Source of the DNA: Euryodendron excelsum
Lineage: Eukaryota > Streptophyta > Magnoliopsida > Ericales > Pentaphylacaceae
DNA: 64,000 nt
Direction of reading: 5' to 3'
Assembly: GCA_033060915.1 (NCBI GenBank)
Contig: CM065396.1
Span: forward strand, 717,001-781,000
The position numbers and the translations under genes are program-made. Within the stretch, counting starts at the first letter, position 1. Each line of letters begins with the position of its first letter. Under the pieces are notes generated by a model, which worked only from the letters and a program-made list of their open reading frames with translations, made no database searches and had not been told where the DNA came from. This document shows, in pieces, positions 2,577 through 34,943 of this stretch.

Positions 2577-2578
2577 GC

Positions 2579-5500
2579 TGTCGGGCCCCGATTTTTTGCA
2601 CCCGAGAAAAATACACACAAGTGGGAAAAACATGATATTCTCTCATAGAACTCATCATCCTAGAAGAACGAGTGTGACTTGATTTGAATTAGAAATTGAT
2701 TTGATTAAGGACTCTGGGAAAAAGGTTTGGAGTCTCCACCTAATTTGATTAAGGTGAGTTAGGTCACCTAAAACTAAGCACAATCCAAAAATTACATTTA
2801 GGGTTTTTGAAAAGGTTTTGAAAGCTTCCTTAATAGAGGGATTTTAAGAAACTAGATTGTTTGAAAACCTTTGGAAAGATATAAGCCCTTTTTAAAAAAT
2901 AACTCCATTTTTGGTCATTGAAAATAATGATCTACGTTTGGAGGTTAATTACGTGTAGGGAAGATGCCCTAAGCCATCACCCTACCCCTCCCTTCTGGTA
3001 CTTACATGTCTATTTACCCTAAGTTCACTCATTTGGAATCTTTGATTAATAAATATCCAATATTATCCACTTTAGAAAAAGAACTATATGATACATGCTA
3101 TGTAAATGCAAGAGAAAGATTTGAGTTTGAAAATAGAATTGATAAAAAGTTTTGATTTTGAAAGTAGATTTGAAAAGACTTGATTTTGAAGTTTAAAAGA
3201 AAGTTTTAGAAATTGGAATTTGGAGATTTTGGAATTAGAAGCTTGAAATAGATTATGGAATTAGAAATTTGGAAAAGATTGTGGAATTAGAAACTTGAAA
3301 AAGGTTAAGACCTCACCCATAAGGGTTGCCTACATATCCCTTTTTGGAAATCAGGCCCGTCGTAGTTCGGACAAGAGTCCAATTGAAAGTAGACATTTTA
3401 AGATTTTTGAAAAGTTTGATTTGAAAAGAGTTTGATTTGAACTTTGAATAAGAGACTTGAAATTGAACTTGGGATTGACTTTGATTTAAAATAGAACTTG
3501 AGGATTGGAAATTGATTTTGATTTGAAAAGATTGAACATGGACTTGATTTAGAAAGATTAAGATTTGAAAACATTAATTGAAGTTTGAAAATTATCTTGA
3601 TTTAGAAAAGAGTTTTTAGAAAAGTGTGGAAGCTTCCTAACTTTAGGGTTAGGGTTGAACTAAGGTTTAGGTCTCCTAGGATTTAGGTTACCTAAGATTG
3701 GAACATGTAGTTAAATTGGAAAGGATTTGATTTAGATTTGAAAAGTTTGATTTTAGAAAGTTGGATTTAGGAAAGGTTTGATTTAGGAAAGTTGGATTTA
3801 AGGAAGATTTGAAAAGAGATTTGATTTAATTTGAAAACACTTGATTTTGAATGATTTGGAAAGTTACGGTTTGGGAAAGGTTGGACTTGGAAAGCTTTGA
3901 ATTAGGAATGTTTCAAAATATAAAAGTTCCATTTTAGGAAAGTGCCAAATTAGGAAAGTTTTATTTTAAGAAAGTTTTGAATTTAGAACAATTGAACTTT
4001 AGAAAGCTTTGGAATTTGGAAAGTTTTGAAATTTAGAAAGGTTGAAATTAGGAAAGGTTTGACTTAAGAAAGATTTGATTATTGTTTCCTAAAATAGAAT
4101 ATTAGATTTTATTTTAAAAAATAAATGGATTGATATGGTTTCTAAAATTGAAGGATTAGATTTAGTTTCCTAAACAGGAAGATTTGATCTAGTTTTTTAA
4201 TTTGAAAGATAGGATTTGACATGGAACTGGAAAGGTTGAATTTTGGAAATCTAGGATTTGAAAACCTATGATTTTATGTAGAAAAAGAGATTTTGAAAAT
4301 CTATGATTTGAGGCAAAATTGGAAGTCATGTTTTTAGAAAAGAGAACTAGAGTTTCCTAACCATAGAATCTAAGGCTTGACTTGGAGTCCAAGAAAAAGA
4401 GTTTTTGGAAAGAAAATCTTTTAGAAAAATTTCTTGGAAGGAGACTTGAAGATAGTTTTTAAAAAGTGAATTTTTGAAGAGAACTTTTAGAAAGGAGTTT
4501 GAAAAGAGCATTTTGAAAAATAGATTTTTGAAAAGAGTTTTTGGAAAGGAGTTTTGAGAAAGTGGATTTTTGAAGAGAGCATTTAGAAAGTATTTTGCAA
4601 AGGGATTTGAATATGAACTTTTGAGATCTTTTGAATGTCTCACTTTCCTAAAATGACTTTAACCATGAAGAGATTATGACCATTCTAATTTGGTGGTTTT
4701 GAAAACAACATAGATTTAGAATATGAACCAATATGATCATATTGTCTATCACACCTTCCTAAAACAACCCTAACCATGGAATGGGTAGAATCATCTTGAG
4801 ATGGTGGTTTTGACGAAAAGCAATTTAAGGTTTACACCCAAAATAGGGACCTTGATGGTCACAATGAATATAACACTTCCATAAAGCAACCCTAATCATG
4901 GAATGGCTAGAATCATTTTAAGATTGTGATTTTGAAAACATATTTGAAAAAGAGATTTTGAATGCAAGTTTGAAAGGTGATTTGATGCAAGTTTTGAAAA
5001 CCACTTTGAAAACAAGTTTTGAATGGATGAATGAATATGATATGCACAATGCAAGTAGGGTCGTGATCATACAAGGTTAGGATTCACCACATAATCAAGG
5101 GGGCCAAATCCACATGGTCTAAGGTTGAATTAGAAGAAAGCTCCTGACTCGGTGACTTTCAACAATCCTTCCTACTCATGAATCAGGGATTCATTTGTTC
5201 CAAGCATGCAAGAAAGGGGGGGAGAAGATAGGAGATTAAAATAGAAGAAAATCCAAGTGGATTAGGAGGAAGAAGAGAGAAGGGGGGAAGTACGTAAACA
5301 TAAAAAGAGAGCCTGCCTTGCTTTCTTCTTGTTTTGCTTGCCATATTTACTTTGCTTTGCTTGATCCTTTAGAGCTTCCAAGTTGCATCACCTTAAGTCT
5401 TCAATGGAGGCTTTGGAGGCTTGTGTATGAGTGTATGGAATTTGTATAAGTGTTAGGGTTAAGTGTGTGGTGGCTAGGGTTTGAAGAGACTAGAAAGGCT

Positions 5501-6620
5501 AGGGTTTTGGAGAGACTTCGAGCTCTGTAATTTGAAAAGTAGAGTTTTTAGATTGATTTTACAGACCATTTACATGCAAGGGGAGGCTCTATATTTATAG
5601 ACACAGGACTAGCCTGACACCTGTTGTAGTGGCACCAATGCAAACTTTATACTGGCTAATTTTTGGCTTAGCGCCACTACTAGTAGTGCCAGTGACTTAT
5701 GAAATATTTTAAGGCGGCAAGAAACATAGCTTTTGACCCTTGATACATAAGGCAAAAGATTTTAGCGTCTGTATTAGTGACTACCATGCAATTTTTGGCT
5801 TGCCTCCACTAAGAGTGACTCCAGAAGGTCATGGAATGTTTCGGAAGACCAGAAATGGTCCAGAAGGCCGGAAATGGGTAGAAACCCTTGAAATAGTGTA
5901 TCGGAGGTAACAAACTTGAAAAACAGTGTCGGGATGATCGACCGAGCTATTAGGGACAAAATGGTTAACTAGACTAGAACACTACTGGAATAGACTTGGA
6001 ATAAATCATGAGAGGACTTGAAGGTTGAAAACACTATATAAAGTGTTCTGAGAGATTGCCGGTTTGGTACCTAAAGCCGTTGTGGTCGAAAAAGGCGACC
6101 AGCCTCCAAGGGGCAAAACGGTCATTTTGCACCGAATTTGCCAAAATAGACTCAGAATGTTTCGAAAAGGTGCTAGAAGGTTGAGAATACCGTTAGAAGA
6201 ATCCTTGGAAAGTAACCGGTTTGTTACCCAGAGCCGGTGTGGTTCCTGGTGGCGCTTGGATGCCTAGGGGTAAAATGGTCATTTTGATCGGATAGTCTCG
6301 AAATTGGTCCGAAACTGACTGGAAGGCACTTGGACATGCTAGGTCGTCTTTGTATGAAAGGTGGATTACCACTTTGAGGACTTAGGTACTTTCTCAAGAA
6401 ACGTGCCAGAAAATGTCCAAGGGATAGTTTAGTCATTTTTCACTAGAGTGGGCTAGCAAGCACTGGTGTTGGCTCGAGTTTTTAGTGTTACCGCCACTCT
6501 GACGGTCTATAACGAGTTGGTTTCCAAAGATATCTTGTCCTTTGGTAAACGTGTCACGACCAATAGGTGAATTTGATCCCATAACATAGGGGTTTTGTTG
6601 GCAATTCTCCATAACATAGG
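2579..6620 (-). mobile_element. Minus-strand Tat LTR, outer copy, 3' portion (5' LTR of gag at 1-1211)
   Basis: In minus orientation the LTR ends at 2579 with CA next to the primer site. It runs rightward through the end block (matching the last 150 bp of the solo LTRs), the GATACGTAGG-type block (about 3310-3380), the long G-poor tract (T/A/G on the plus strand, 3400-4650), a donor-like site with GC instead of GT (5315-5316), and a TATAAATA box (5592-5599). Around 6600-6620 the sequence switches abruptly to the end region of another LTR. The missing first ~630 bp reappear at 11013-11645. The exact switch point is uncertain by some ten bases because the end of the inner LTR is deleted. Confidence 0.85.
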
Positions 6621-9365
6621 TGAATACACACACAAGCGGGAAAAACATCGTACTCTCTCGTTAGAACTCACCTTCCTAGAAGAATGAGTGCTACTAGGTT
6701 TGAATTGAAAATTGGTTTGAATAAGGGGCTTTCGGAAAACAATTTGGAGTCGCCACCTAACTTAGTTAAGATGAGTTAGGTCACCTAAAAACTAAGCACA
6801 ATCCGAGGATCACACTTAGGGTTTTTAAAAAACGATTTTGAAAATACTTCCTCAAGAGAGGGTTTTTAAGAAAACAGGTTATTTGGCAACCTTTGGAAAA
6901 TATTTAAGCCCTTTTTTAAAAATAACTCTATTTTGGTCTTTCAAAAACAGTGATCCTAGGTTCGGAGGTTGGTTACGTGTAGGGAAGACGCACTAAGCCA
7001 TCATCCTACCTCGCCCTTGCGATACCTACATGTCTATTTACCCTAGATTCACCTATGAGTGTCTTCAACTAACAAATGCTTAATCCTATTCACTTTAGAA
7101 AAAGAATGTTTAAAAGGAAAAGACATGATGCATGATATGTAAGTGCAAGAAAAGAGAGTTGAAAAATAGATTTGGAAAAGAAGAATTTAAGAGAAATTGA
7201 TTTGATTTTAAAAAAGAGATTCGAAAAGATAGATTTGAAATTGGAAAGCTTAGAAATTGGAAATAGAGATTTGAAAATAGAAATTTAGAATTGGAAGTTG
7301 GAAAAAAGTTGTGACTGCACCCATAAGGGTTGCCTACATTTCCTTTTTGAGGAATCAGTTCAGTCGTAGTTCGGACAAGAGTCCGATAGAAAATAAAAGG
7401 TTTTGATTGGAAAAAGAAATTGAATTGGAATTTGGATTGGAAGATTGAGATATTGAACTTTGATTGAAAGATTTACAAAGATCGGTTTAGGAAACCTAGA
7501 CTTAGGAAAGAGAGGATTTAGAAAGGACTTGAGTTTAACAAAGATTGGACTCGAATGTTGGACTTAGAAGATTGGAGAAAGATTGGATTGAATTTAGGAA
7601 AGGTTCGAATTAGGAAAGTTTCAAAATAGGAAAGTGACATTTTAGGAAAATTTTATTTTAGGAAAGTTTTCAAATTAGGAAAGTTTTATTTTAGGAAAGT
7701 TTTGAATTAGGAAAGTTTAAAATAGGAAAGTTCCAATTTGGGAATATTTTGAAATAGAAAAGTTTAGATTTAAGAAAGATTTGAAAGTTAGAAAATTTAG
7801 AACTTAAAAAGTTTCAACTTGAAAAAGTTTTGAATTTGGAAAGATCTGAAATTTAGAAAGTTTGGAAGTTTAGAAAGATTTGAAAAGTTAGATTTGGAAA
7901 GTTAAGATTTGGAAAGGGTGGAATTAGGAAAGGATTTGAATTAGGAATGATTTAGACTAGGAAGGATGGAGGTTCCTATTTCCTAAACAAGGGATTAGAT
8001 TTTGTTTCTAAAAGAGGTGTTTGATTTTGTTTCCAAAAATGGAGGATTGTATCTGGTTTCCTAAAGGGAGATTGGATTTGGTTTCCTAAAGGGAAGATTA
8101 GATTTGGCTTCCTAAAGAGAAGATTTGATTTGACATGGATTTGGAAGGAGAAGTTTTAGAAACCCTAGATTTGGAAAACTATAGTTTTGACGTAAAAAAG
8201 AGGGTTTTGGAAACTTATGATTTTAGTGTAAAAAAGGAGATTTTGGAAACTTAGGTTTTAAGACAAGATTGAAATCATGTTTTTAGGAAGGAAAATTGGG
8301 GTTTCCTAATTGTGGGTTCTAGGGCTTAACTTAGACTCTAAGAAAAGAGATTTTTGGAAAGTGAGATTTTTAGAAGGAAATCTTAGAAAGGAGTTTTTAG
8401 AAAGTGAATTTTGAAAAGAGAGTTTTTAGAAAGATTTTTTGGAAAGCAACACTTTGAGAGAGTTTTTGGAAAGAGTTTTTGGGAAACAGATTTTTGGAAA
8501 GAGTTGTTCAGAAAGAGTAGTTAGGAAAAAAACTTAAGGAGCATTTTTAGAAAGTGAACTTTGAGGAGGGTGTTTTGGAAAGGAGTTTGAAAAAGAGATT
8601 TTGAAAAATAGATTTTTGGAGGGAGTTTTTAGAAAACAATTTTGGAAAGGAGATTGGGGAGAGCTTTTAGAAAGTATATAAAATATCTCACTGTCCTAAA
8701 GCGATTCTAACTATAAGAAGGTTAGAACCACTTTAGGATAGTGGTTTTGAAAACAACAAGGATTTGAAAATATGGATCATATCGGTCACTTTAAATGTAA
8801 CACTTTTATAAAGAAACCCTAGCCATGGAAAGGCTAGAATCACCTTAGGGTTGTGATTTTGAAAACAAGTTTTGAAAAAGAAAATTTTGATGCAAGTTTA
8901 AAAACAATGTTAATGCAAGTTTTGAAAACGAGTTTGAAAATAAGTTTAGAAGAATGCAAGATCACGATATGCACAATCCAAGTGGGTTAGGAGAGAGAAG
9001 AAAGGGGGAAGATGCGTAAACTTAAAGAGAAAGCCTACCTTGTGTCTTGTTTATATTGCTTTGCTTTGTGCGCTTTGTTTTTTCTTACTTTGCTTCGATC
9101 TTCACTTCATTCTTCGAGAGTTTGTCTTCAATCGTCAAAATTTCGTAGTTGCAGCAATCCAAGTCTTCAATGGAGGGTTTGAAGGCTAGTGTATGAGTAT
9201 ATGAGAGTGTGTATGAGTGTATAGGAGGCTAGGGTTTGTATATGGAAGCTAGGGTTTGGAAAACCTAAAGAAGCTAGGGTTTAGGGAGGCTACGAGCTCT
9301 GTATATCGAATAATAGGATTTTCAGACAGAGTTTGCGGACCTCTTCCATGCTGGAGGAGGCTCTG

Positions 9366-9373
9366 TATTTATA
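9366..9373 (-). promoter_or_regulatory. TATA box of nested minus-strand LTR
   Basis: TATAAATA on the minus strand followed by CAGAGCCTCC. The same box and downstream context recur in the other Tat LTRs. It marks the probable transcription start region (U3/R junction). Confidence 0.75.
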
Positions 9374-10639
9374 GAGAGAAGAATGAATTGACGCCTGTTA
9401 CAGTGGCACCAGGCCAAAATCTTTCCTAGTGGTGCTAGCCAGTTAGGAAAGTTTTAAGGTCAGCAATCAACGTATCTTCAGAAGATTTGGGCGCCTATAC
9501 TAGTGACTACCATGCAATTTTTAGCATGGCTTCACTAAGAGTGACTCTGAAAGGTCCGGAAAGGATTTAAAGGACCGGGAATGGCCCAGAAGGCCGTAAA
9601 AGGGAAGGAACCTTTAGAATAGGGTCCCAGGGGTATTTGACTTGAAAAATGAGGATAAGAGGTGTCGGAAGGGTTGACCGGGCCATTAGGGGCAAAACGG
9701 TCAATCGGACAGAAAAGCTGCCCGGACGGACTCAAAATGCCCTGAAAGAAGACCCAAGATTTAGAAATATTATTTAGAATTTTCTAGGAGGCTACCGGTT
9801 TAATACCTAGAGCCGATCTGATCGAAAAAGGCGATCGGCCCACCATGGGCAAAACAGTCATTCCGCACCGAGTTTGTCGGAACTGACTCAGGATGATCCG
9901 AAAAGATAAAGGAAGGTCGAGACTACTATAAGAAGCATTCTTGGGAGGCTACTGGTTTGATAACCAGAGACAGTGTGGTCCTCGAGGTGTTCGGATGCCT
10001 AGGGGCAAAATGGTCATCTCGACCGAAAAGTCTCGGAATTGGCCCGAAACTAACTAAAAGGCACCTAATCATGCCGGATTGCTTTTAAGACAATCTTGGA
10101 AGGGTGGACTTATTGTTCTGAGGACTTAGGTATTTTCTCGAGAAACGTGCCAGAAATGGCCCTAGGGGCAGTTTGGTCATTTTTCACCGAAGTGGGCTAA
10201 CAGGCACCAGTGTTGACCTAGGTTTTGAGTGTTTCCGCCACCCTAACGGCGGTCCTGTGATATAGGTATTTGTTGGCAATTCCCTATATCGACCTATTTG
10301 CTAGTATTTCTACTACTCTGACGGTTGCGATGTTTGCGAGTACTTCCGCTACTTTGACGGTTCGCTATAATTCTTGAGACTGCCTGATCTCTGGAAGCTG
10401 CTAAAGGGACTTAGCGCCTGAGAATTAACTTTCTCAAAAAGCGGGCCAAAACGGACATTTCTACATTGACGGGCTAGCAGGCGCCAAAGGTGGGCCGTTC
10501 TACCATCTTGGGGACTTGGGGTCTCGTCCCAATCAACGAGTTTGAAGAGACTTACTGTTCTGAAGAAACGTTTTTTTAAAAAACATGCTAGATTGGATAG
10601 ATTTACCGTCTTGAGGAATCAACTTTCTCAAGAGAAAGA

Positions 10640-15077: not shown

Positions 15078-16833
15078 TGTTGGCCCAAAAGGCAACCCAA
15101 GAGGGGGGTGAATTAGGTGTTTCAAAAATTATTGGCAAATAAGATTAATTAAAATTAATCTAAATAATATAATAGTAATCAATCTATATATAATGTAATG
15201 TAATCAAAAGAGAAATGAAAAAAGAGCAATAGAAAGCAGACCAAGAATTATCGAGGTTCAACTATAATTCATGGTCTACGTCCTCACCCCAAGATCCCCT
15301 TGAAGTCTTCCTCCGCTATGCAATCTTCAATTACAAAATGGATGCTAATTTACCAAGTGCTCAGCTCACTTTTATACAAGAACTTCTTCCTAAGTTCTTC
15401 CAGCTACCAAGTAGTTTTGTCCAAGATCCACTCAAACTTACAAGAGTTTTTCTTCAACAAGAGAACTCTCAAACTCTCACTTATAGATATATAAAGATGT
15501 ACAAACAAAATAAAAACTCTCTATCAAGAGTGGATAGACAAATAAAAGCTCACTCAATGAAGACAAGAATAATGTTTAGATTTTTTAGTTTGATCAGTCA
15601 GTGGTACTTATGTTTCTTGTTTCTCTTATTTATAAATGCAGTTGGAAGCTTCTATATAAACCGCTGTATTGATTTCGTCCGTTGGAGGTTGTTAGGGCTC
15701 ATTTAATGCAAGTCCAATCCGTTACAACGTTTGAAAAACTAGTCGTTATCTCCCAAGTGTCGACACTTGGTTCCATATGTCAACGCATCTGGTCTGCATT
15801 TTCCAGACATTGTCCATTGTTTTCATGTGTCGACACATCAACTCCATGTATCGACACTTGATCATTCTGTCTTCAAATTTTTGGCCTTTGTCTTCATGTG
15901 TCGATTTTTCATTTTCATGTGTCGACACATTATCCAAAAATCTTGCTTCTGTCTTCCCATGATCAAGTTCAGCTTTAGTACTAATATAAGATCTCCAAAG
16001 AGTCTTCTCTTTGGGGCATGATGATCAATCAAAGTCTTCAATTCATCAAAGTTGTCTTCTATTCAATTTGGCTTGAATCTATCATTTGATAATAATCTTT
16101 TCTTGATTTCCAAACTGTTCGGACTTCATTCCATCAATGTTGAGCTCTTCTTCTTTGTTGTCGAGCTTTCTCTTTCAGTGCCGAGCTATTTCTTTCGTTC
16201 CCAAGCTATTTGTTTCATTGCTGAGCTTTCTCTTTCATTGCCAAGTTCTTTCTTTCATTGGGATCACTTTAATGAGACTTCTATAAGCTTGATGAAATCT
16301 ATTCTTGAACGCCTTCATTTTCTCTGAGTACATATCATCTTCATTGAATCTTTACATCCAAGATGTAATCTTCACTTAGATTCTTTGTAGAGATTATGCA
16401 ATTGCGATGAATTGTCTTCTCAAACATCTTTAATCTCTTCTCAATCAGATCATCTTCAACTGATCTTTGCACACTTTGATGAAGTCTTTATTTGGACACC
16501 TTCAATCTCTTTGAATTCAAGTCATCTTTATTAATTCTATGCATACTTGATGGAATCTTCATTTAAACACCTTCAATCTCTTCAAATATAAATCATTTGT
16601 TTGAAGTTGGAATAGGTGTTATTGCTCAGTCTGATACATCAAATGACTCTTGGAGTGCATTGTTTGATCTTAGCTTGTTGTGCATTCACTTTGACATATA
16701 TTAGACTTAAAGTCAAACTTCTAAGTCTAAATTATAATCTTTATTAATCTGAATACTAAGTAAATACATTAGTAAAACAACACAAGATTTAGTTATCATT
16801 AAAATCAACATGAGGATTAACCTTGAGTCAACA
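15078..16833 (-). mobile_element. Copia element, 3' LTR
   Basis: This 1756-bp LTR starts TGTTGACTCAAGG (minus strand, 16833) and ends GGGCCAACA (15078). It is highly similar to 29467-31243 and to the solo copy at 56711-58376. In minus-strand order it has the U3, then a cluster of TGTCGACA palindromes (15758-15927), then a TATA-like TTTATATAG (about 15652-15660). A purine tract adjoins it at 16834, which identifies it as the 3' LTR. Confidence 0.9.
15758..15927 (-). promoter_or_regulatory. TGTCGACA palindrome cluster in copia 3' LTR
   Basis: Cores TGTCGACA (some with one or two changes) start at 15758, 15778, 15828, 15849, 15899 and 15920. They form three pairs 20-21 bp apart, and pairs recur every 70-71 bp. 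Most are embedded in the longer palindrome ATGTGTCGACACAT or AAGTGTCGACACTT. The cluster is about 100 bp upstream of the TATA-like box on the element strand, as expected for promoter elements. Confidence 0.8.
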
Positions 16834-16847
16834 ATCTCCTCCTTTTT
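16834..16847 (-). other. Polypurine tract of the copia element
   Basis: On the minus strand AAAAAGGAGGAGAT ends directly at the 3' LTR start TGTTGACTC. This is the normal place and composition of the plus-strand primer. Confidence 0.85.
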
Positions 16848-17600
16848 GATAATGACAAAACCTTTGCAAATTAAATTGATATACGATTAAATGAAATGAA
16901 CAAAGTTGGATTGCATACCAGTAGAGAACTCCCCATTTGTTTCATAACTAATCAATTGATACTTAAGAGACAAAAGACTTTTCAAAAACACTTTTCAAGG
17001 AGTTTTTTTCAATTAATTCAGAACAATTTGAGGGAAATGATTCATGTTACTCCCCCTGAGAACATGCTCTATACTTTTTAATTTATCACTTATTTCATTT
17101 TCATTCAATGCCATATGTAATTAATTAATCAATGCTAATTTATCAAACAATTCATTGTCATTTTACTTTAATCAATTATTCTCTATTTGTTGTCCAATTC
17201 TTTTCCAATTTTAATTCTTGTGCAATTCTTCTCCAACAAACACAAGCACTCATTGTTTTCTTATTCTTGTGCAATTCATTTCCAATTCTTCTCTCTCTTT
17301 TTGTCAATTCATCAAAAAGAGAGAAAGAAAAAGGAAATTATAGACAGGTACAATAGCAAAAAATATTATAACAAAATAAATTATAGAAATAGGAAAGAAA
17401 ATAAACAAGCAAGTCATTATGGCATCAATTGGGCACCAGGACAATATTGTATTTCATTCATTCAAAACAGTAGTACAAAATGTTTGACATTTGATATCCA
17501 CAAAATATGTAGTGAAAAAAATAAATAAAAAGATATTATAACAGGGCCATAGAGTAAAGGTTTTGATGCTGGAGAATTTTGGAGGAGGTTTAAGGAGATG
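16848..17600 (-). other. Copia 3' untranslated region
   Basis: AT-rich, low-complexity sequence lies between the extra ORF and the purine tract. On the plus strand it is rich in TTCTTCTC and CAATTC runs (17150-17330). The short ORFs have no domain. I see no further feature. Confidence 0.5.
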
Positions 17601-18953
17601 GAGAGGGAGAGGGGGATAGTTCAACTAGGTCAGATGTAGTATTGGAAGGGCCAGAAAAGGATCAAGCTCTCAGACAATATGGCTGCTTGCGCAAAGGTCT
17701 AGAAACTGAGACAGATGATGTGATATGCTTGGCTGGGTTAGCTTTCTTCCTTGGGACATCAAAGAGGCTATCCCCAAACTCATCCTCAGACAAGCCTCTG
17801 TGGCCTCATGATCAGATTCTTCTTCTAGTTTCTTTTCTTATTGAGTTTTGGCTAGAGTCCTATATTATGTTTCAGAGTCCTTTTCTGCCTCATTTTCCTC
17901 TTTATCAACTTATTCTTCTTTTTTTGTTTCCTCTTCCTTAATCTCAATTCCTTGAGCCTTTTTTAATTGAATCATATCTTGCTTAAGCAGCCTAGGGGCA
18001 ACTAGGGGCAACTAAGGATCGAGCTCTTTTATGGGAAGTGCTACTAGGGGCAACTTTCTTAGGCCTTGGAACCCATTAGCCATCAACTTTCCTATAGCCC
18101 ATCCTCCCCAGAGTGTACTTACTGTACTCATCACGAAAGGGGTCAGGCTTTTTGTAGTTTTCACCCAATAGATTCACTTGAAAATGTTTGAAGATTTTGG
18201 TAAGCAACATCCCATAGGGTAGATTTTTGGAAGAGGTGATAGAGGCATTGGCCATGTTTGTGAGAATATAGCATGGAACATCAATTTTGGTATTTGTAAG
18301 GAATGCCCATAGAAAAAACAAATCCTTCTCACTCACATGCTCAAAACTACCAATTTTAGGCAGAAAAATTTTGGCAACAAAATAGTGTACCAATCTCAAT
18401 TCAACAGGAAGGTCATTGGCTACAGGTTGTGTGGATTCAGGCATGTCTTGGCCATATAGAACATGAAGTTATCTATTTATGCTTACAGTCTCAAAATAGA
18501 TCTCTCCACCATATCCAGTTCCCATAATTTCAGAGAGAGTGACTTCATTTATAGTGATCTTCACTCCTTTCACAAAGCTAGTAAGTTCTGTTTCTCCAAC
18601 CTTTTTCATGAGATTTTAGTAGAAATGGATAACCAACTAAGGGTATACATTCTCTCGAATCAAGGTGTAGGGTTTCAATCCCAAACTAGTAAGAGTGTGA
18701 GGGAAGTTGAAGTTCTCATTTTCAAAGTACTCATAATTAATCCAACGTCCATTTAAAATTTTACTGAGTCCAAAAATATTCAAATACATTTCTTCAAGCA
18801 TTGCATCTCTAAAGTGTACCACATCCCATCTCGGTTGTTCTGAAGAAGCCTTTTGAACTAATTCTCTGATTGGAGGTATAACCCTTTTTCATTCTGACTT
18901 TGTGTAGAGGAGTCTTTAGGGTTTTCTCGTCTTTGATGGACTTTGGGTGCCAT
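17601..18953 (-). pseudogene. Extra ORF of copia element, resembling 'putative plant transposon protein'
   Basis: This ORF lies on the same strand as pol and downstream of it. An ATG at 18953 begins MAPKVHQRRENPKDSSTQSQ. After one frameshift (about 18870) a single frame runs from about 18860 to 18076 with only stops near 18637, 18616 and 18469. It includes PRWDVVHFRDAM, a WINYEYFENENF stretch, LMKKVGETELTSFVKG, MGTGYGG, LVHYFVAKIFLPKIGSFEHV and NLPYGMLLTKIF. The order of a W-rich start, an 'FY.NL' site, a 'VKGV.I' site and a late NLPYG motif is what I know from the plant-specific domain annotated as putative plant transposon protein, whose function is unknown. A Lys/Glu-rich tail follows, running to about 17900 or further. 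It is not env-like: no signal peptide or membrane segment is visible. It appears to have its own promoter (see 19167-19289). Confidence 0.65.
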
Positions 18954-19166
18954 GTCTGTAGTCTTAGGTTTCGAAAGATGGAGAAGATGGTTGTGCGAAG
19001 ATGGAATGAGATCGATTAGGGTTTATAAGATGAAAGAAGGAAGATTAGTGATGGTTCAAAGGTGACAGTTGGTTTTGGTGTGAACAGAGGAGCAGGAGAA
19101 AAAAAGAGTGAGAGTAAGAAAGAGAGAGATAGGGAAATTTCAAATGTTTGTAAAGTGGACTTAGTT

Positions 19167-19176
19167 AAAGTATATA
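19167..19176 (-). promoter_or_regulatory. TATA box in front of the copia extra ORF
   Basis: TATATACTTT on the minus strand lies about 214 nt upstream of the ATG at 18953. It is followed by a pyrimidine-rich stretch (CTATCTCTCTCTTTC, about 19115-19135) typical of plant 5' leaders and preceded by the palindrome cluster at 19190. This is an inferred promoter. Confidence 0.55.
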
Positions 19177-19185
19177 GGCCCAACT

Positions 19186-19289
19186 CATGTGTCGACACAT
19201 GAACTTGGTGTGTTGACACATGCCTGTTAACAAAATAATTTTGAGTCTACTGTCGTGATGTGTCGACACATGGAAATGGTGTGTCGACA
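19186..19289 (-). promoter_or_regulatory. TGTCGACA palindrome cluster upstream of the extra ORF
   Basis: Cores start at 19190, 19211 (TGTTGACA), 19261 and 19282. They form two pairs 21 bp apart, repeated after 71 bp, the same geometry as in the copia LTR. The copy at 19186-19201 is a perfect 16-bp palindrome CATGTGTCGACACATG. Confidence 0.8.
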
Positions 19290-19473
19290 CATGCAACCAA
19301 ACTGAGGCATGTGAAGTATATGGAATTCAGGAGATGGCTTTTTCAATATGGGAGAGAAATTTTGTTTTGATATGATCATGCAAGGAATTATGAATATGAG
19401 AAATGCAATACGCATAAATGATAATCACATTTAAAGCATTCAAAACATAAATTTCACTCAAATTAAATAAGTA
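19290..19473 (-). other. Spacer between copia pol and the extra ORF promoter
   Basis: AT-rich non-coding stretch after the RNase H stop. No feature seen. Confidence 0.5.
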
Positions 19474-22400
19474 TTAAGACGCATGATCACTCATTCCCAA
19501 TTCTCTTTTTATCATGCAAAAATGATCTTCATTCAATGGCTTAGTAAAGATATCAGCTAATTGCATGTTGGTGCACACAAAGTCAAGTTCAATATCACCT
19601 TTTTGTACATGATCTCGTATAAAGTGATATCTAATTTTAATGTGCTTTATGTGAGAGTGTTGAATATGATTTTTAGTCAAGTTTATAGTACTAGTATTAT
19701 CACACTTAATAGGAATATGATCAAACAAGATTCCATAGTCTTCCAGCTATTGTTTAATCCATAACACTTGAGCACAAAAACTACCAGCTACTACATATTC
19801 AACCTCAGTCGTAGAGAGAGCAACTGAATTTTGTTTCTTGCTATACCAAGATACAATCATGTTGCCTAGGAGTTGGCAAGAGCCACTTATGCTCTTCTTA
19901 TCAACTCTACTTTCCGCATAATCAGCGTCAGTGTAAGCATTCAAATTAAAGCAAGTACTCTTTGGCTACCATAATCCAAGGTTAGGTGCATGCTTAAGAT
20001 AACAAAATATTCTCTTTATAGCAATCACATGAGATTCTTTAGGATTAGATTGAAAATGAGCACATAAACAAATACTAAACATTATATCTGGTCTACTAGC
20101 AATTGGATACAATAAGGAGCCTATCATGCTTCCATAAAGTTTAGTATCTATGGATTTACCTTTCTCATTGCTATCCAATTTTATTGTAGTACTCATTAGA
20201 GTACTCATAGGTTTGCCATCTTCCATGCCAAACTTTTTGATCAAGTCCTTGATGCATTTGGCTTGGTTGATGAAAATGTCTTCCTTGGATTGCTTGATTT
20301 AAAGTTCGAGAAAGTAGTTGAGCTCACCCACATACTCATCGCAAATTCTCCCTGCATAAATTTAGCAAATTCTTCGCAAAGCGACTCATTAGTAGCACCA
20401 AATATAATATCATCCACATATATTTGCATTAAAAGCATGTCATTGTTTTTTATTTTGATAAAAAGGGTGGTATCTATTTTTCCTTGAGAGAAACCTTTTT
20501 CAATAAAAAAAACTTAATCTTTCATACCGAGCCCTTGGGGCTTGCTTCAAACCATATAAAGTCTTTGTTAGTTTGAAAACATGGTTAGGAAAGTTCGGAT
20601 CTTCAAAACCAGGGGGTTGTTCAACAAAAACTTCTTCGGTGATAAAGCCATCTAGAAATGCACTTTTAACATTCATTTGATATAATTTGAAATCTTTAAA
20701 GTAAGCAAATGTAAGTAACAATCTAATGGCTTTTAGTCTAGCTACCGGAGCATATGTTTCATCAAAATTAATGCCTTCTTCTTGGCTATAATCTTGACCA
20801 GCAAGTCTTGCCTTGTTCCTCACAACAACTCTGGACTCATCCATTTTATTTCTAAAGACCCATTTAGTTCCAATGACTGGATGATCATTAAGTCTAGGAA
20901 TAAGGTGTCATAGCTCATTCCTTTCAAATTGGTTCAATTCTTCTTACATTGCATTAATCCAAAACTCAACATTTTCAGCGTCATCAAAACATTTAGGCTC
21001 TATTTGTGATAAAAATGCAGGATGATTACATATATTTTTTATAGAAGATCGAGTTCTTACTCCTTGTGAAGGATCACCTAGGATTTGTTCCGTAAGATGG
21101 TTATACACAAACTTCCATTTCTTAGGTAGACCTTCATTGATTTATTGTTGGCTTGTAGGATCTTCTTGTGCTTCTCTTTCTTTTTGAGGTTCTTCATTTG
21201 AGCTTGGTTGATTGTTCAGCTTTTTCATGTCTAGCTCTTCCTTATCTACATCATTGCTTACAACATTCTTTGAAGAAGAGTTATATTCATCAAAAGTGAC
21301 ATAGACTGATTCTTCAACTACTAGAATCCTCTTATTAAAGACTCTATAAGCCTTGCTATGTGTTGCCTTGCTATGTGTTGAATATCCAAGAAATACACTC
21401 TCGTCAGATTTTGCATCAAACTTGTTGAGGTTGTCTTTATTGTTATTCAATACAAAGCATTTGCATCCAAAAGCTTTAAAGTATGAGACATTTGGTTTCT
21501 TATCTTTCCAAAGTTCATAAGGGGTTTCATTAAAAAATTTTCTAAATAAAATTAGATTCAAAACGTAGCAAGTTGTGTTAACAGTTTCACCCCAAAAATA
21601 TTTTGGTAAACCATTTTCACCAAGCATGGTTTTACTCATTTCTTCCAAAACTCTGTTTTTCCTCTTAACAACCCCATTTTGTTGAGGAGTTCTAGGGGCT
21701 GAGAAGTTGTGATCAAAACCATTTTCATCACAAAAAATTTCAAAGGGTTTGCAATCGAATTCTCCTCCATGACTAGTCCTAATAGAAGTGATTGAAAATC
21801 CTTTTTTCATTTTGTACCTTTTCTACAAAATTTTGTGAAGAAAACAATTGTCTCATCCTTGTGAGCTAGGAAGAATGTCCATGTAAATCTAGAATAGTCA
21901 TCAACGATAACAAGTGCATATTGTTTCCCACCAAGACTTAAAGTCTTGGTTAGTCCAAATAAATCCATATGCAATAGTTGTAGTGGCCTATAGGTAGTGA
22001 GCATATTTATAGATTTGAAAGAGATTCGAGTTTGTTTACCTAATTAACAAGCATCACAAACTCTATCTTTATCAAATTTTATCTTTGAAAGTCTTTTGAC
22101 CAAATCTTTTTTAGAAATCTTTGAAAGTATTCTCATACTAATGTGACCAAGTCTTCTATGCCATAACCAACTTTCATCACTATTCATGGCGGTAAGGCAT
22201 TCAACTTTATAAGAAGATAGATCATTGAGATCGAAAATATGAATATTGCTTTATCTATGCCCAGTGAGGATTGTCTTGTTACCATTAATATTAATTACAT
22301 CACATTTAGAGGATTCAAATACAACCTTGCATCCTTTGTCACAAAGTTAACTAATGCACAAAAGATTATGTTTGAGTCATTTAACAAGCAATACATTTTC

Positions 22401-22587: not shown

Positions 22588-22802
22588 TGTAAGCATCCCA
22601 TTTTTGACTGCTTGGTAGTCTACGCTCCGTCCAGACTTGTACTCAAGTCAATATGGACGTATTCCAATCGAAACCAATTCTCTAAGTCCAAATCTCTTTT
22701 GTCCATCGCCTCGCGGGCCCACCAGGCCCAAAATAGAGGCAAAATGACCAAAATGCCCTTAGGGGCATTGTCCTTTCCAATTTCAACTCCAAGCCCTCTC
22801 TC

Positions 22803-23210
22803 GAAACAGTTTATTCCTTGAGACGCTAAGTCCCCTTTCCAATCCCTCTCTCGAGACAGTTTATTCCTCGAGACGGTTCCAAATCAGGCACGTCTTTCTG
22901 AAGACGGTAAGTCCCCTTTCCAACCCCTCTCTCGAGACAGTTTATTCCTCGAGACGGTTCCAAATCAGGCACGTCTTTCTGAAGACGGTAAGTCCCCTTT
23001 CTAATCCCTCTCTCGAGACAGTTTATTCCTCGAGACAGTTTTAAATCAGGCACGTCTTTTTGAAGACAGTAAGTTCCCTTTTCAATCCCTCTCTTGAGAC
23101 AGTTTATTCCTCGAGACGATTCTAAATCAGGCACGCCTTTCCAAAGACAATAAGTCCCCTTTCCAATCCCTCTCTCGAGACAGTTTATTCCTCGAGACAG
23201 TTTGGCACGT
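22803..23210 (+). repeat. 81-bp minisatellite in solo LTR A
   Basis: GAGACAGTTTATTCC starts at 22853, 22934, 23015, 23096 and 23177: exactly 81 bp each time. A shortened unit lies at 22803. A 102-codon minus-strand reading frame is a by-product of the period being a multiple of 3. Confidence 0.93.
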
Positions 23211-24404
23211 TTTTCAAAAAATACCTCTTCAAAACAGTAAGTCCCTTTAAACCTATCGACCGGGACGAGACCCCAAGTCCCCTAAATGATAGAATGGTCC
23301 ACCTTTGGCACCCGCTAGCCCGTCAATACAGAAATGTCCGTTTAGGCACGTCTTCCGAGAAAATTGACTTCTCAGACTCTAAGTCCCCTTTAACAGCTTT
23401 CCAAGATCAGGCAGTCTCGGGAATGATCGCGAACTGTTAGAGTAGCGAAAATACTCGCAAACATCACAACCTTTTGAGTAGCGAAAATACTCGTAAACAG
23501 GTCGATATAGGGAATTGCCAACAAACCCCTGTGTCACGACGACTACTGTCAGAGTGGTGGAAACACTCAAAACCCAGGTCAACACCAGTGTATGCTAGCC
23601 CACTTCGGTGAAAAATGACCAAACTGCCCCTTGGACCTTTTCTGAGACTTTCCGGTCAAGATGACAATTCTGCCCCTAGGCATCCAAACGCCCTGGGAAC
23701 CACACCGGCTCTGGGTATCAAACCGGTAACCTTCTGAGATTACTTCTTATAGTATTCTCAACATTCCTCTACCTTTCCGGATCATTCTGATTCAGTTCCG
23801 GCAAACCCAGTGCAAAATGACCATTTTTCCCCTAGAGGGCCGGTCACCTTTTCTGACCACACTGGCTCTAGGTATCAAACCGATAACTTCCTGAGAATGC
23901 TTTTTATAGTGTCCTCAATCTTTCTTTATCCTTTCGGGTCATTCTGAGTCAGTTCCGGCAAACCCGGTACGAAATGACCGTTTTGCCCCTAGTGGGCCGG
24001 TTACCTTTTTCGACCACACCGGCTTTGGGAATCCAACCAGAAACCTTTAGAAACATTCTGAATAATGTTTCCAAATCTCGAGTCTTCTTTCGGAACAGTC
24101 CAAGTCCGTCCCGGTAGCTTACCGGCCTGATTGACCGTTTTGCCCCTAAAGGCCCGGTCAACCCTTTTGACACATCCTATCCTCAATTTTCAAGTCAAAT
24201 ACCTCCGAGACACTATTTTAAGTGTTCCTGCTCTTTTTTGGCCTTCCGAGTCATTCCCAGTCTCCCAAACTCCTTCCCAGACTTTTCGAAGTCACTCCTA
24301 GTGAAGTCATGCTAAAAATTACATGGTAGTCACTAGTACAAGCGCCCAAATCTAGTCAAAGATACATTGCTTGCCGACCTTAAACATTTCCTAAATGGCT
24401 GGCA

Positions 24405-24427
24405 CCACTAGTAGTGGTGCCAAGCTA
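24405..24427 (+). repeat. Inverted repeat upstream of TATA, solo LTR A
   Basis: Arms GGCACCACTA and TAGTGGTGCC face each other with a 1-bp spacer. The other copies have GGCGCC arms. Both arms have lost the CpG here, yet they still pair. Confidence 0.75.
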
Positions 24428-24475
24428 ATGTTTGGCCTAGTGCCATTGTAACAGGCGCCAGTGCATTCTTCTCTC

Positions 24476-24483
24476 TATAAATA
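24476..24483 (+). promoter_or_regulatory. TATA box of solo LTR A
   Basis: TATAAATA followed by CAGAGCCTC. Same context in all related LTRs. Confidence 0.8.
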
Positions 24484-24796
24484 CAGAGCCTCTTCTAGCG
24501 TGAAAGAGGTCCGCAAACTCAGTCTAAAAACTCTAATTTTCTATGCACAGAGCTTGTACACTCCCTAAACCCTAGCTTCCTTAGATTTTCCAAACCTTAG
24601 CCACCATACACAAACCCTAAGCTACATATACACTCCTATACACTCTCATACACTTATACATTAGCCTCCAAACCTCCTTTGAAGATTGGAAGAGCTACAA
24701 ACCGAAGCCTTGAAGATTAAAGACGAGCCCTCGAAGATCAAGACTAAAGTGAAGCAAAGATCGAAGAAAGCAAGGCACACAAAATAAACAAGACAC

Positions 24797-24805
24797 AAGG
24801 TAGGC
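24797..24805 (+). promoter_or_regulatory. Conserved splice-donor-like site, solo LTR A
   Basis: AAG/GTAGGC with GT at 24800-24801, 324 nt after the TATA box. The motif is kept in most Tat LTRs of the window. Confidence 0.45.
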
Positions 24806-27763
24806 GTTTGTTTTACGTTTCTACACTCCCCCCCTCTCTCCTCTCTCCTAACCCACTTGGGTTTTCTCTATTTTAATCCCCCATCTCTTTCCCCCCTTTC
24901 TTTTCATGCTCAAAACAAGGGGACTCCCGGTCCATGTGTAGGATTAGACTATTGGAGGGTCACTGTGTCGGGGGCTTTCCTTTAGGCTAACCAGAGACCA
25001 CGTGGATTCGACCTCCTTGATTATGTGGTGAAGCCTTAACCTTGTATATTCACGACCCCAAACTTGTATTGTGCATATCATGATCTTGCATCTTCCAAAA
25101 ATCGTTTTCAAACTCGTTTTCAAAATTTGCATTAAACTTGTTTTCAAAATTGCATCAAAATCTTTTTTTTTTTCAAAACATGTTTTCAAAATCACAATCC
25201 TAGGGTGATTCTAGCTTTTCCATGGCTAGGGTTGCTTTAGGAAAGCGTTACATTCAAAGTGACCAATATAGTCCATATTTTCAAATCTTGTTGTTTTCAA
25301 AACCGCTTTCCTAAAGTGGTTCTAGCTCTTTTATAGTTAGAATTGCTTTAGAAAAGTGAGATGTTTTTACACCTTCTAAAAACTCTCTTTTCAAAAGTCT
25401 CTCTTTCTAAAACCCACTTTTTCAACATGCTTTCCCAAAACTCTTCTTTCCAAAGTTGTTTTCAAAAACTCCCTCCAAAAATCTATTTTCCAAAACTTTT
25501 CTTTTTAAACTCCTTTCCAAAACGCTCTCTTGAAGGTCCACTTTCCAAAAACGTTCCCTAGATTTCCTTATTAGAAAAACCCCTTCCTAAATCTCTTTCT
25601 TCAAAATCTCTTTCTAAAAACTCCTCACTAGGATCTCTTTCCAAAAACTCTTTCTCCTCAAAATTCACTTTCCTAAAAACTCTTCCCAAAATCTTCCTTC
25701 TATAAACTCCTCTCTAGGATTCCCTTCTAAAAATCTTCATTTCTAAAAATGCACTTTCCAAAAATCCTTTCCTTAGAGCCCAAGTCAAGCCCTATAACTC
25801 ACAATTAGGAAACCCTAATTTTCTTTCCAAAAACATGGTTTTCAAACTTGCCTTCAAACCTAGGTTTCCAAAACTCCTTGTTTTCTACATCAAAACTATA
25901 CATATTTCTAAAACCTATTTTCTACGTCAAAACTATAGTCTTCCCAAATCTAGGGTTTCTAAAACTTCCTTTTCCAAATCCTTGGCAAATCTAATATTCC
26001 CTTTAGGAAATCAAATCAAATCTTCCCTCTAGAAAACCAAATCCAATCTCTTGTTTAGGAAACTAGATCCAATCCTCCGTTTTTTGAAACAAAATCAAAC
26101 TTTCTCTTTTAGAAACAAAATCCAATCCCTTCCTAATCTAAATCTTTCCTAGTTCAACTCCTTCCTAAACTTCTCCTTTCCTAAGCCTTAAGTTTTTAAA
26201 ACTTGAACATAAAGATCTTTCCTAAATTTTAAAAACTTAACTTCTACATCTTTCCTAATTCAACCCCTTCCTAATTCTACCCCTTTCCAAATCTTAACTT
26301 TCCAAGTCCAAGTTTTCAAATATTTCTTAAACACAAACCTTTCTTACTCTCAAAACTTTCTAAATCCTAAACTTTCTAAATTTCAAATCTTTCTAAATCC
26401 AAAGCTTTCTAAACTCAAAACTTTCTTAATTCAAAACTTTCTTAACTTGAAACTTTCCAAATTCTAAACCTTTCTTAAACTAAACTTTCCTAATTCAAAA
26501 CATTTCTAAATTCAACACTTTCCTATTTCAAAACTTTTCTTAAAACGAAACTTTTCAATTTTCAAAACATTCCAAATTCAAAACTTTCCTAATTCAAAAA
26601 CTTTCCTAAAACGAAACTTTCTTAATTCGAATCTTTCCTAATTCCAATCTTTCTCTAATCTTCCAAGTCCAACATTTGAGTCCAATCTTTCTTAATCTCA
26701 AGTCCTTTTCTAAAATCTTATCTTTCCTAAGTCTAGGTTTCCTAAACCTTCATCTTTCCAAAACAAGTCTAAATCTTTCTTCCAAGTTCTATCTTTCCAA
26801 ATCAAAATTCAACCTTTTCAATTTCAAAATTCTAAATTCCAATCTTCAATATTCTATTCTAAATTCAAATCAAATCCAAATTCCAATTCAACTCCTTTTT
26901 CAAATCAAGCATTCTATTTTCAATCAGACTCTTGTCCGAACTACGACAGACCTGATTCCTCCAAAGGGATACATAGACAACCCTCATGGGTGCGGTCACA
27001 ACTTCTTTCAAATTTCAAATTCCTCCATATTTTCCAAATTTCAAACTCCACCATCTTTTCAAATCTCCAATCTATTTTCAAACTTCCAATTTCAAATTTC
27101 TATTTCCAAATCTCTATTTCTAATTTTTCAAACTTTCTAATTTCAAATATATCTTTTCAAATCTTTTCTAAAATCAAATCAATTTCTTTCCAAATCCATT
27201 TTTCAACATTCTTTTCTAGCACTTGCATATCATGCATCATGTCTTTTTCAAACATTGTTTTATAAAGTGGATAGGATTGAACATTAGTTAGTTAAAGACT
27301 CTTATATGTGAATATAGGGTAGATTGACATGTAGGTACCGAAAGGCCGGGGTAGGGTGATGGCTTAGTGCGTCTTCCCTACACGTAACCAACATCCGAAC
27401 TTAGAATCACTGATTTCAAAGACCAAAAGGAGTTATTTTTCAAAAAATGACTAAATGTTTTCCAAAGGTTGCCAAACAACCTGTTTTCTTAAAAACCCTC
27501 TCTTGAGGAGATATTTTCAAAATCGTTTTCCAAAAACCCTAAGTGTAGTTTTCGGATTATGCTTAGTTTTTAAGTGACCTAACTCACCTTAATCAAGTTA
27601 GGTGGCGACTCCAAATCTTTTTCAAAAGCCCTTTATTCAAAATTATTTTCAATTCAAACCTAGTCGCACTCATTCTTCTAAGAGGGTGAGTTCTAACGAG
27701 AGAGTATAGTATTTTTCTCGCATGTGTGTGTATTCCTTGAGTGCGAAAAATCTGGGCACGACA

Positions 27764-29450: not shown

Positions 29451-29464
29451 AAGCTCTGATACCA
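29451..29464 (-). other. Copia primer-binding site (initiator Met tRNA)
   Basis: On the minus strand TGGTATCAGAGCTT lies 2 nt after the 5' LTR end. TGGTATCAGAGC is the well-known complement of plant initiator-Met tRNA used by most copia elements. Confidence 0.95.
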
Positions 29465-29466
29465 CT

Positions 29467-31243
29467 AGTTGGCCCAAAAGGCAACCCACGAGGTGATGTG
29501 AATAAGGTTTTTCAAAAATTATTGGCAAATAAGATTAATTAAAATTAATTTAATCAATATAACAATGATCAATCTATATATAATGCAATGTAATCAAAAG
29601 AGAAATGAAAAACAGAGCAATAGAAAGCACACCAAGAATTATCGAGGTTCAACCACAATTCGTGGTCTACGTCCTCACCCCAGGATCCCCTTGAAGTCTT
29701 CTTCCACTATGCAATCTCCAATTACAAAATGGATGCTGATTTACCAAGTGCTCAGCTCACTTTTACACAAAAACTTCTTTCCAAGTTCTTCTAGCTACCA
29801 AGTGGTTTTGTCCAAGATCCACTCAAACTTATAAGAGTTTTCCTTCAACAAGAGAACTCTCAAACTCTCACTTACAGATGTATAAAGATGTACAAATAAA
29901 ATGCAAACTCTTTATCAAGAGTGGATAGACAAATAAAAGCTCACTCAATGAAGACAAGAAGAATGTTTAGATTTTTCAGTTTGATCAATTAGTGGTACTT
30001 GTGTTTCTTGTTTGTCTTGTTTATAAATACAGTTAGAAGCTTGTATATAAACTCTTGTATTGATTTCGTCCATTGGAGGTTTTTGGGGCTCATTTAATGC
30101 AAGTCCAGTCCGTTATAACGTTAGAAAAACTAGCCCTTATCTCCCAAGTGTTGACACTTGGTTCCATGTGTCGACACATCTGGTTTGCATTTTTCAGATG
30201 TTGTCCACTGTTTTTATGTGTCGACACTTGATCATTCTGTCTTCAAATTTATGACTTATGTTTTCATGTGTCGACTCTTTATTTTCATGTGTCGACGCAT
30301 TGCTCAGAAATCTTGCTTTTGTCTTTCCATGATCAAGTTCAGCTTCATTACTACTATAAGATCTTTAAGGAGTTTTCTTTTTGAGGCATGATGATTAATC
30401 AAAATCTTCAATTCATCAAAGTTGTCTTCTATTCAATTTAGATTGAATCTATCATTTGATAGTCATCGTTTCTTGATTTCCAAACTCTCAGGGCATCATA
30501 CCATCAATGCTGAACTCTTCTTCTTTGTTGCCGAACTTTCTCTTTTATTGTCAAGCTCTTTCTTTCATTGCCGAGCTATTTCTTTCATTGCTGAGATTTC
30601 TCTTTCATTGCCAAGCTCTTTCTTTCATTGACGAGCTTTCTATTTCATTGCCGAGTTCTTTCTTTCATTAGGATCACTTCAATAAGACTTTTATAAGCTT
30701 GATGAAGTCTATTCTTGAGCACCTTTATTTTCTCTGAATACATATCATCTTCATTGAGTCTTTATATCCCAGATGAAATCTTCACTTAGATTCTTTGTAG
30801 AGATTATGCAATTGCAATGAATTCTCTTCTCAAACATCTTAAATCTCTTCTCAATCAAATCATCTTCAACTGATCTTTGCACACTTTGATGAAGTCTTTA
30901 TTTGGACACCTTCAATCTCTTCGAATTCAAGTCATCTTTATTGAGTCTATGCATACTTGATGGAATCTTCATTTGAATACCTTCAATCTCTTCGAATCTA
31001 AATCATTTGTTTAAAGTTGGAATAGGTGTCATTGCTTAGTTTGGTACATTGCATGACTCTTGGAGTGCATTACTTGATCTTAGCTTGTTGTGCATTCACT
31101 TTGACATATATTAGTCTTAAAGTCAAACTTCTAAGTCTAAATTATAATCTTTATTAATCTGCACACTAAGTAAATGCTTTAATAAAATAACACAAGGTTT
31201 AGTTATCATCAAAATCAACATGTGAATCAACCTTGAGTCAACA
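29467..31243 (-). mobile_element. Copia element, 5' LTR
   Basis: This 1777-bp LTR starts TGTTGACTCAAGG at 31243 and ends GGGCCAACT at 29467 (the terminal A has changed to T). Next to the primer site it is the 5' LTR. On the minus strand it has palindrome cores at 30149, 30169, 30219, 30269 and 30290 and a TATA-like TTTATATAC at about 30043-30052. One palindrome of the 3' LTR is missing by a 21-bp deletion. Many single-base differences from 15078-16833 show the insertion is not recent. Confidence 0.9.
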
Positions 31244-33283: not shown

Positions 33284-33498
33284 TGTAAGCACCCCATTTT
33301 TTACCGCTCGGCAGTCTACACTCCGTCCAGACTTGTTTTCAAGTCGTTGTGGGCATATTCCAATCGAAACCATTTCTCTAGGTCCAAATTCCATCTTTCC
33401 ATCGCTTCGCGGGCTTGTCAGGCCCAAATAGAGGCAAAATGACCAAAATGCCCTTAGGGGCATTGTTTCTTTCCAATTCCCTTTCCAATCCCTCTCTC

Positions 33499-33765
33499 GA
33501 GACAGTTTATTCCTTGAGATGGTCCGAGTAACAAAACTACTCACAAAACCGTTAGAGTAGCGAAAATACTCACAAAACCGTTAGAGTGGCGGAAACACTC
33601 AAAACCCAGGCACGTCTCTTCGGAGACGGTAAGACCCCTTTCCAATCCCACTTTCGAGACAGTTTATTCCTCGAGACGGTTCCAATCCAGGCACGTCTCT
33701 TCGGAGACGGTAAGACCCCTTCCAGTCCCACTCTCGAGACAGTTTATTCCTCGAGACGGTCCGAG
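33499..33765 (+). repeat. 81-bp minisatellite units in solo LTR B
   Basis: GAGACAGTTTATTCC at 33499, 33656 and 33736, with spacers of about 80 bp in the second pair. The first unit is separated by a block of 29-bp repeats, so the two arrays have been mixed by rearrangement. Confidence 0.85.
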
Positions 33766-34095
33766 TAGCAAAACTACTCACAAAACCGTTAGAGTAGCGG
33801 AAATACTCACAAAACCGTTAGAGTAACGAAAATACTCAACCCCGTCCGAGTAGCGGAAATACTCCCAAATCATCAACCCCGTCTGAGTAGCGGAAATACT
33901 CACAAAACCGTTAGAGTAGCGAAAATACTCACATAGCCGTTAGAGTAGCGAAAATACTCACAAAGCCGTCCGAGTAGCGGAAATACTCACAAATCATCAA
34001 CCCCGTCCGAGTAACGGAAATACTCCCAAGTCATCAACCCCGTCCGAGTAGCGGAAATACTCACATCGTTAGAGTGGCGGAAACACTCAAAACCT
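33520..34095 (+). repeat. 29-bp tandem repeats with internal hairpin, solo LTR B
   Basis: Units of the form GTTAGAGTAGCGGAAATACT plus CACAAAACC recur at 29-bp spacing (for example 33551/33580 and 33788/33817). A related CCGTCCGAGTAGCGG form alternates. Each unit contains GAGTA and TACTC separated by 7 bases. The array is interrupted by 81-bp units at 33600-33765. Confidence 0.88.
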
Positions 34096-34920: not shown

Positions 34921-34943
34921 TGGCGCCACTAGTAGTGGCGCCA
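34921..34943 (+). repeat. Perfect inverted repeat with GGCGCC arms, solo LTR B
   Basis: Arms TGGCGCCACTA and TAGTGGCGCCA are exact complements with one base between them. Two or three further GGCGCCA copies follow before the TATA box at 35020. Likely U3 regulatory elements (inference). Confidence 0.85.

Follow-up and report, generated by a model that had tools for sequence, protein, structure and literature searches.

The window analysed here, a 64,000-bp stretch of contig CM065396.1 of Euryodendron excelsum, carries a long terminal repeat (LTR) retrotransposon on its minus strand, on which all features of the element given below lie. Self-BLAST and junction reading delimited a 5′ LTR at 29466-31243 and a 3′ LTR at 15078-16833, which differ by a K2P distance of 0.102, corresponding to ~4 to 7 million years at substitution rates of 1.3×10−8 to 7×10−9. 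The primer binding site read from the sequence, TGGTATCAGAGC (29453-29464), is presumably an initiator-tRNA site. Pfam matches marked an integrase piece (SH3_retrovirus and a weak rve_3 match, 21145-21810) and a reverse transcriptase piece (RVT_2, 20503-20844), and an open frame with a codon-position pattern marked the end of RNase H together with the pol stop (19474-19746). We take this order of integrase, reverse transcriptase and RNase H to be that of copia elements. A repeat of ~5 kb is nested in the element at 22588-27763.

Sireviruses, which make up ~21% of the maize genome (PMC3599292), are marked by a polypurine tract abutting the LTR and by further tracts after the ORF (Bousios et al. 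2010, PMC2829016). Repeated palindromes in Sirevirus LTRs and 5′ of ENV are described there as well, with boxes in both places in 13 of 21 published elements, that is, not universally. Among the relatives of our element, the polypurine octamer AGGGGGAG begins 10 bp ahead of the 3′ LTR; in those such as L016-L020 the tract directly abuts the LTR start (AGGGGGAGAT followed by TGTTG), and the window copy has the variant AGGAGGAG at this junction (16836-16843). An extra AGGGGGAG tract lies at 17050-17057, and polypurine copies recur 3′ of ENV: the window has one exact octamer and two with one mismatch, and at least two exact octamers were found in 20 of 39 near relatives, one in 13 and none in 6. 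Palindromic boxes occur in the LTR and 5′ of ENV. Their core is GTCGAC or GAGTCG and not CGG-CCG, a core that we did not take as defining because Tnd-1 is a published exception and the Vitis motif CGGTCGACCG is close. By these sequence features, the element is a Sirevirus-type Ty1/copia element on the minus strand, a cautious label given that its reverse transcriptase was assigned by the Pfam RVT_2 match. The Copia element with an extra gene of the preliminary description is thus no oddity, since the ENV-like gene and its 5′ palindromic boxes are known in kind from PMC2829016, which reports both.

The extra ORF, ENV-like and related to PF20167, lies downstream of RNase H on the pol strand, past a spacer of ~520-525 bp. 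The ATG is at 18953, as the preliminary description had it, and opens MAPK...; the RNase H ORF (19746-19474) stops upstream. In the window the ORF is broken by frame changes and stops; its open pieces are a first one (18858-18953) with the same start as in the homologues P0002, P0004 and P0005, a second in another frame (18637-18888) whose codon position 3 is least conserved, a third (18469-18615) and the PF20167 piece (18076-18444). The likeness to the "Putative plant transposon protein" domain was borne out: the 122-aa piece 18444-18079 matched Pfam PF20167 (E = 2.3×10−10) with 41.1 bits, slightly short of the cut-off of 45 bits, and the natural 267-aa ORF of L037 cleared it with 50.8 bits. 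One short database protein without a name shows 80% identity to this piece of the window. The natural L018 ORF has eight database relatives, 32-51% identical over the aligned part, of which seven come from Actinidia rufa (six labelled "Putative plant transposon protein") and one has no name.

Natural ORFs of 267 aa (L037) and 353 aa (L018) occur in relatives. The longest unmasked open run in the ORF region was 353 codons (39 near relatives, several masked upstream and not judgeable), compared to 445-494 aa for P0002, P0004 and P0005. An internal stop is absent from 13 of the best 115 of 4466 genome protein matches. Near relatives are ~100 bp longer than the window copy between 18023 and 17987, suggesting that the window ORF carries a deletion. 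The start codon is kept in 24 of the 27 rows of the alignment described below, MAPK is common to the homologues, and ENV codon positions 1 and 2 are conserved above position 3 in the same alignment, indicating that the ORF was under selection.

Simple hydropathy analysis of five homologues (P0002 and P0004-P0007, P0007 being without its N-terminal part) revealed neither a clear signal peptide nor a clear membrane segment, the two features of a retroviral-type envelope protein. The best 19-residue hydropathy ranged from 1.38 to 1.62, the value of P0002 (1.62) being borderline for a membrane segment, and the N-terminal 12-residue maximum was 0.56. The name "envelope" is therefore doubtful for the PF20167 protein. 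Of 19 listed copies, 8 have a KRKR patch after the start, 9 stop earlier and 2 have the patch altered. A nuclear role for the protein is at this stage a lead only, for whose probing the absence of clear envelope features is an argument. Structure prediction for P0005 and seven relatives gave a mean pLDDT of 34, too low to be of use, the natural 353-aa L018 ORF matched no solved structure, and a search of IMG/VR returned no relative.

Between pol and ENV, the palindrome cluster, TATATACTTT (19176-19167), the pyrimidine-rich leader and the ATG at 18953 follow one another just as first described. The palindrome array (19188-19291) comprises boxes TGTGTCGACACA at 19280-19291, 19259-19270 and 19188-19199 and a box with one mismatch at 19210-19219, spaced by 21/50/21 bp. 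With one mismatch allowed, 200 shuffles of a 1001-b LTR stretch of one relative yielded a mean of 0.005 boxes, compared to 4 observed in the window spacer of ~525 bp; the number of palindromes of any kind is not unusual (4 in the block, and at least 4 in 35 of 1276 windows of 171 bp). The motif of the spacer recurs in a palindrome array of the 3′ LTR (15753-15932), whose TATA region (TTTATATAGA, 15651-15660) lies ~100 bp past the last box, and the 5′ LTR has its own array at 30144-30300. Among the 39 near copies, successive boxes of the spacer mostly lie 21 bp (38 cases) or 50 bp (22 cases) apart, and those of the LTR mostly 50 bp (42 cases), 21 bp (34) or 20 bp (25). That the spacer promoter had simply been copied from the core promoter of the LTR was rejected, as the surroundings of the LTR TATA differ and stand at that distance of ~100 bp from the boxes.

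A second clade of elements has the box GAGTCG(A/C)CTC. Twenty-two elements were read at both places, 6 of them without scorable boxes on one or both sides, and the box class of the spacer agreed with that of the LTR in 16 of the 16 scorable elements (Spearman 0.86). The GAG type accounts for 12 of them, including L060 with its 1-to-1 tie in the spacer, and the GTG type for 4. The tree contains two clades, with L060 basal and mixed, and the split in box class therefore amounts to one switch, a single clade event. The simplest reading of this agreement would be a single trans factor serving both promoters, or an exchange of arrays between LTR and spacer; boxes common to the two places suggest a single switch for both genes.

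All loci analysed were found via the ORF in the same genome (73 in total, 39 near and 34 diverged). The best 40 of 765 and the best 115 of 4466 candidates were scored in ORF-based searches, and the best 40 of 1059 in a block-based search. Across the spacer, 26 of the 39 near copies (L009-L047) were aligned and 13 were omitted for broken matches or masked N, and 26 of the 34 diverged loci (L048-L061 and L072-L091) were used in the footprint, with L048, L061, L078, L080, L082, L086, L087 and L090 omitted for insertions, a missing upstream region or N. Rechecking of these 21 omitted loci found the block whole or partial in 10, N masking at that place in 4, and no block in 7 (L018, L028, L061, L078, L080, L086 and L090). 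The preliminary description had tied its reading to the presence of the upstream block in other family members; 62 of the 73 loci keep it whole or in part (52 aligned through it plus the 10), but in the 7, out of 69 readable loci, the fetched stretch contains the ORF and no block.

The main alignment contained the window and 26 diverged relatives (~72-85% identical by BLAST) from the end of RNase H to the start of ENV, and a second one of 39 rows (26 near and 12 diverged copies) overlaps this 27-row set. Over the 27 rows, mean column identity at third codon positions was 0.69 in RNase H and 0.68 in ENV; it was 0.77-0.83 at first and second positions, 0.73 in the spacer ahead of the boxes (19477-19322) and 0.75 in the box block. 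It reached 0.87 in the TATA core (19177-19166) and 0.85 in both the start zone (19165-19130) and the CT tract (19129-19070), was 0.71 at 19069-19031 and 0.87 in the leader motif TATAAACCCTAA, and was lowest just 5′ of the ATG (0.57, 19011-18954). The top-conserved stretch of the pol-ENV spacer spans 19143-19176; the best 30-bp spacer window begins at 19172-19176 (site-shuffle P = 0.0028, 27 rows), a subset of 12 diverged relatives gave the same conservation picture, and a parsimony count over the 39 rows had its minimum at the same spot (shuffle P = 0.038), P values of these site tests being uncorrected and treating sites as independent. Dropping singletons from the 39 rows weakened the site-shuffle P to 0.16, with TATA, start zone and CT tract still slower than third positions (P ~0.015 each, uncorrected). 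The boxes are not clearly more conserved than third codon positions (P = 0.025 in 27 rows, 0.38 by 39-row parsimony and 0.17 with singletons dropped), and exact boxes persist in 17, 9, 10 and 12 of 27 rows.

The TATATA box itself (19171-19176) has the centre of the last palindromic box 17 bp upstream in 20 of the 22 scorable rows among the 27, and 23 of 27 and 33 of 39 rows of the two overlapping sets have an intact TATA[TA]A. In 21 of 27 rows, 28 bp separate TATA from AACATTY; in 1 the distance is 27 bp, and the remaining 5 are not scorable. A TATA box at a fixed place and conserved in relatives is what is expected of a Pol II promoter, and the high identity of TATA, start zone and CT tract can be read as a sign that purifying selection acted on a core promoter in the time when the copies were active. 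The motif TGGGC(C/T), which we take to be site II-like, is not conserved upstream of TATA (3 of 27 rows). Site II elements are paired with telo-boxes (PMC3022908). Transcription would likely start at CA 19146/19145, 31 bp past the first T of the TATA box, a site chosen because of the plant TATA box positions in PMC1832190, and the TATA position here fits the plant core promoters of that study.

From 19164 to the ATG the distance is 100-218 nt, and 186-218 nt in 23 of 27 rows. The window leader consists of 70% C+T, and the 27-row footprint contains a conserved CT tract at 19070-19140, mostly downstream of the probable start, whereas the Y patches of PMC1832190 lie upstream. The leader holds a telo-box-like AAACCCTAA, and the conserved TATAAACCCTAA (19016-19027) is also telo-box like; telo-boxes occur mainly in 5′ UTRs (PMC3022908). 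In relatives, TATAAACCCTAA lies ~145 bp past the first TATA box, where it may be another core promoter or a telo-box. ATG is absent from the leader in 35 of 39 rows. We rejected this as a demonstration of scanning translation, since GTA and TAG, used as control words, are equally depleted and the scarcity of ATG proves little.

Taken on its sequence, the block 19291-18954 quite probably serves this ENV-bearing, Sirevirus-type element as an internal promoter for RNA polymerase II. The paired palindromic boxes would act as an upstream regulatory array, the TATA box 17 bp past the last box would set the start near 19145, and a CT-rich, nearly ATG-free leader of ~190 nt would precede the start codon of the PF20167 protein. 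Upstream of the TATA box for gag-pol, the LTR carries the same boxes with the same 21/50-bp spacing; because boxes and spacing are common to both promoters, one trans factor probably switches the two together. The internal plant promoter that had been proposed for this element is in this way supported by the conserved TATA core, start zone and CT tract and by fixed spacings; the box block is not clearly constrained.

Splicing of the full-length RNA, with the CT tract as polypyrimidine tract of a 3′ splice site, could also deliver the ENV-like protein. Such a route was proposed for BAGY2 and Athila and has been reported or predicted in other ENV-like elements (PMC7264820, PMC2829016), the CT-rich tract is conserved, and the window has CCTAAG and CTACAG just 5′ of the ATG. 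Yet no AG is invariant from TATA to ATG (the commonest is at 19161 in 20 of 27 rows, followed by 18964 in 8 of 27), the region adjoining the ATG is the least conserved (0.57), and splicing leaves unexplained the conserved TATA and its fixed distance from the boxes, which makes this route improbable. We regard as equally improbable that the gene was captured, with its own 5′ region, from the host or another source and that the block is a leftover gene promoter unused by the element. The leader does resemble host 5′ UTRs in its telo-box AAACCCTAA and its CT richness (PMC3022908), but the boxes are the element's own LTR boxes, differing along with the LTR between clades, and conservation among relatives implies use after capture. 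Capture and present use of the promoter are compatible and not mutually exclusive.

Conservation by itself names no function, and the stretch could serve the genomic RNA or DNA otherwise, in packaging, dimerisation or as a chromatin boundary, with an incidental TATA match. This is very unlikely, as box array, TATA, start zone and ATG are ordered and spaced as in a promoter and the conservation peak sits on the TATA box. Suppression of the pol stop codon, as published for soybean SIRE1 (Havecker and Voytas 2003, via PMC2829016), likewise a Copia element with an extra ORF 3′ of pol, has next to no probability here and is refuted for the copies examined, since the ~520 bp between pol and ENV contain stops in each of the three frames, the frame across the spacer is open in 0 of 27 rows (pol-ENV readthrough being closed in 27 of 27) and the SIRE1-type layout of pol and ENV in one frame but for one stop occurs in 0 of 27 rows.

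An internal RNA polymerase II promoter for the extra gene of Sireviruses is not a new idea. According to PMC2829016, the proposal of Peterson-Burch and Voytas (2002) gains support, with the promoter not conclusively identified, and PMC3414828 names stop suppression and an internal promoter as elucidated mechanisms. In the mostly open-access literature that we covered, we found no published Sirevirus ENV promoter or start site beyond the hypothesis in the former paper and the remark in the latter. Our element resembles those Sireviruses that have both ENV and RM boxes (Osr10, HOPIE, Inga, Barbara, Vitis and others) in its AGGGGGAG tracts after ENV and its palindromic boxes upstream of the LTR TATA and just 5′ of ENV (PMC2829016). 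It differs from them in that its boxes are without the CGG-CCG signature, as is only Tnd-1 there, and begin ~900 bp into the LTR instead of 200-400 bp (PMC2829016). Beyond that paper, a second conserved TATA and a start zone are delimited before ENV here, and the box spacing and the agreement of spacer and LTR by subfamily are added. The expression of the extra gene of Sireviruses has long been debated, and a delimited core promoter with a predicted start makes the internal-promoter idea testable by start-site mapping.

The extra protein itself could be an element-encoded nuclear regulator and not an envelope, a dimer of which would bind the boxes and activate the LTR and internal promoters or shield them from silencing. 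We hold this to be unlikely, even if the boxes and spacing shared by both promoters, the basic KRKR patch and the absence of envelope features in the homologues tested are compatible with it. VANDAL elements are DNA transposons. Their VANC protein is transposon-encoded like the PF20167 protein, and its target motifs are often tandem repeats that vary between related elements (PMC5735166). Were the regulator reading true, a retrotransposon would here have its own equivalent of the VANC anti-silencing systems, and boxes and protein would change in step from one subfamily to another; transposon and protein are however different, and the PF20167 protein is a putative binder of the boxes. Against the regulator reading, Sireviruses without ENV can keep their LTR boxes (PMC2829016, Table 3), which points to a host factor. 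An additional sense ORF partly similar to PF20167 is also found in sunflower Athila 14 (PMC11728184); Athila is a Gypsy element, in contrast to the Copia element studied here, and that paper reports an Athila ORF protein with a transmembrane domain, whereas the homologues tested here show no clear one.

The window contains further repeats. The stretch 56711-58377 is a third LTR of the Sirevirus-type family, apparently solo, with five boxes spaced by 20/50/21/50 bp. Four related repeats of ~5 kb (22588-27763, 33284-38469, 39604-44338 and 58718-63621) have TG...CA ends and matching 5-bp flanks (AAGGC, GTTAG and GCGAG; those of the third, CCACC/CCACT, are imperfect). All four resemble solo LTRs, and the first is the one nested in the Sirevirus-type element. 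Two large repeats akin to them, at 2578-10249 and 47859-56345, lie in the opposite orientation and start with TGTCG(A/G)GCCCCGATTTTT.
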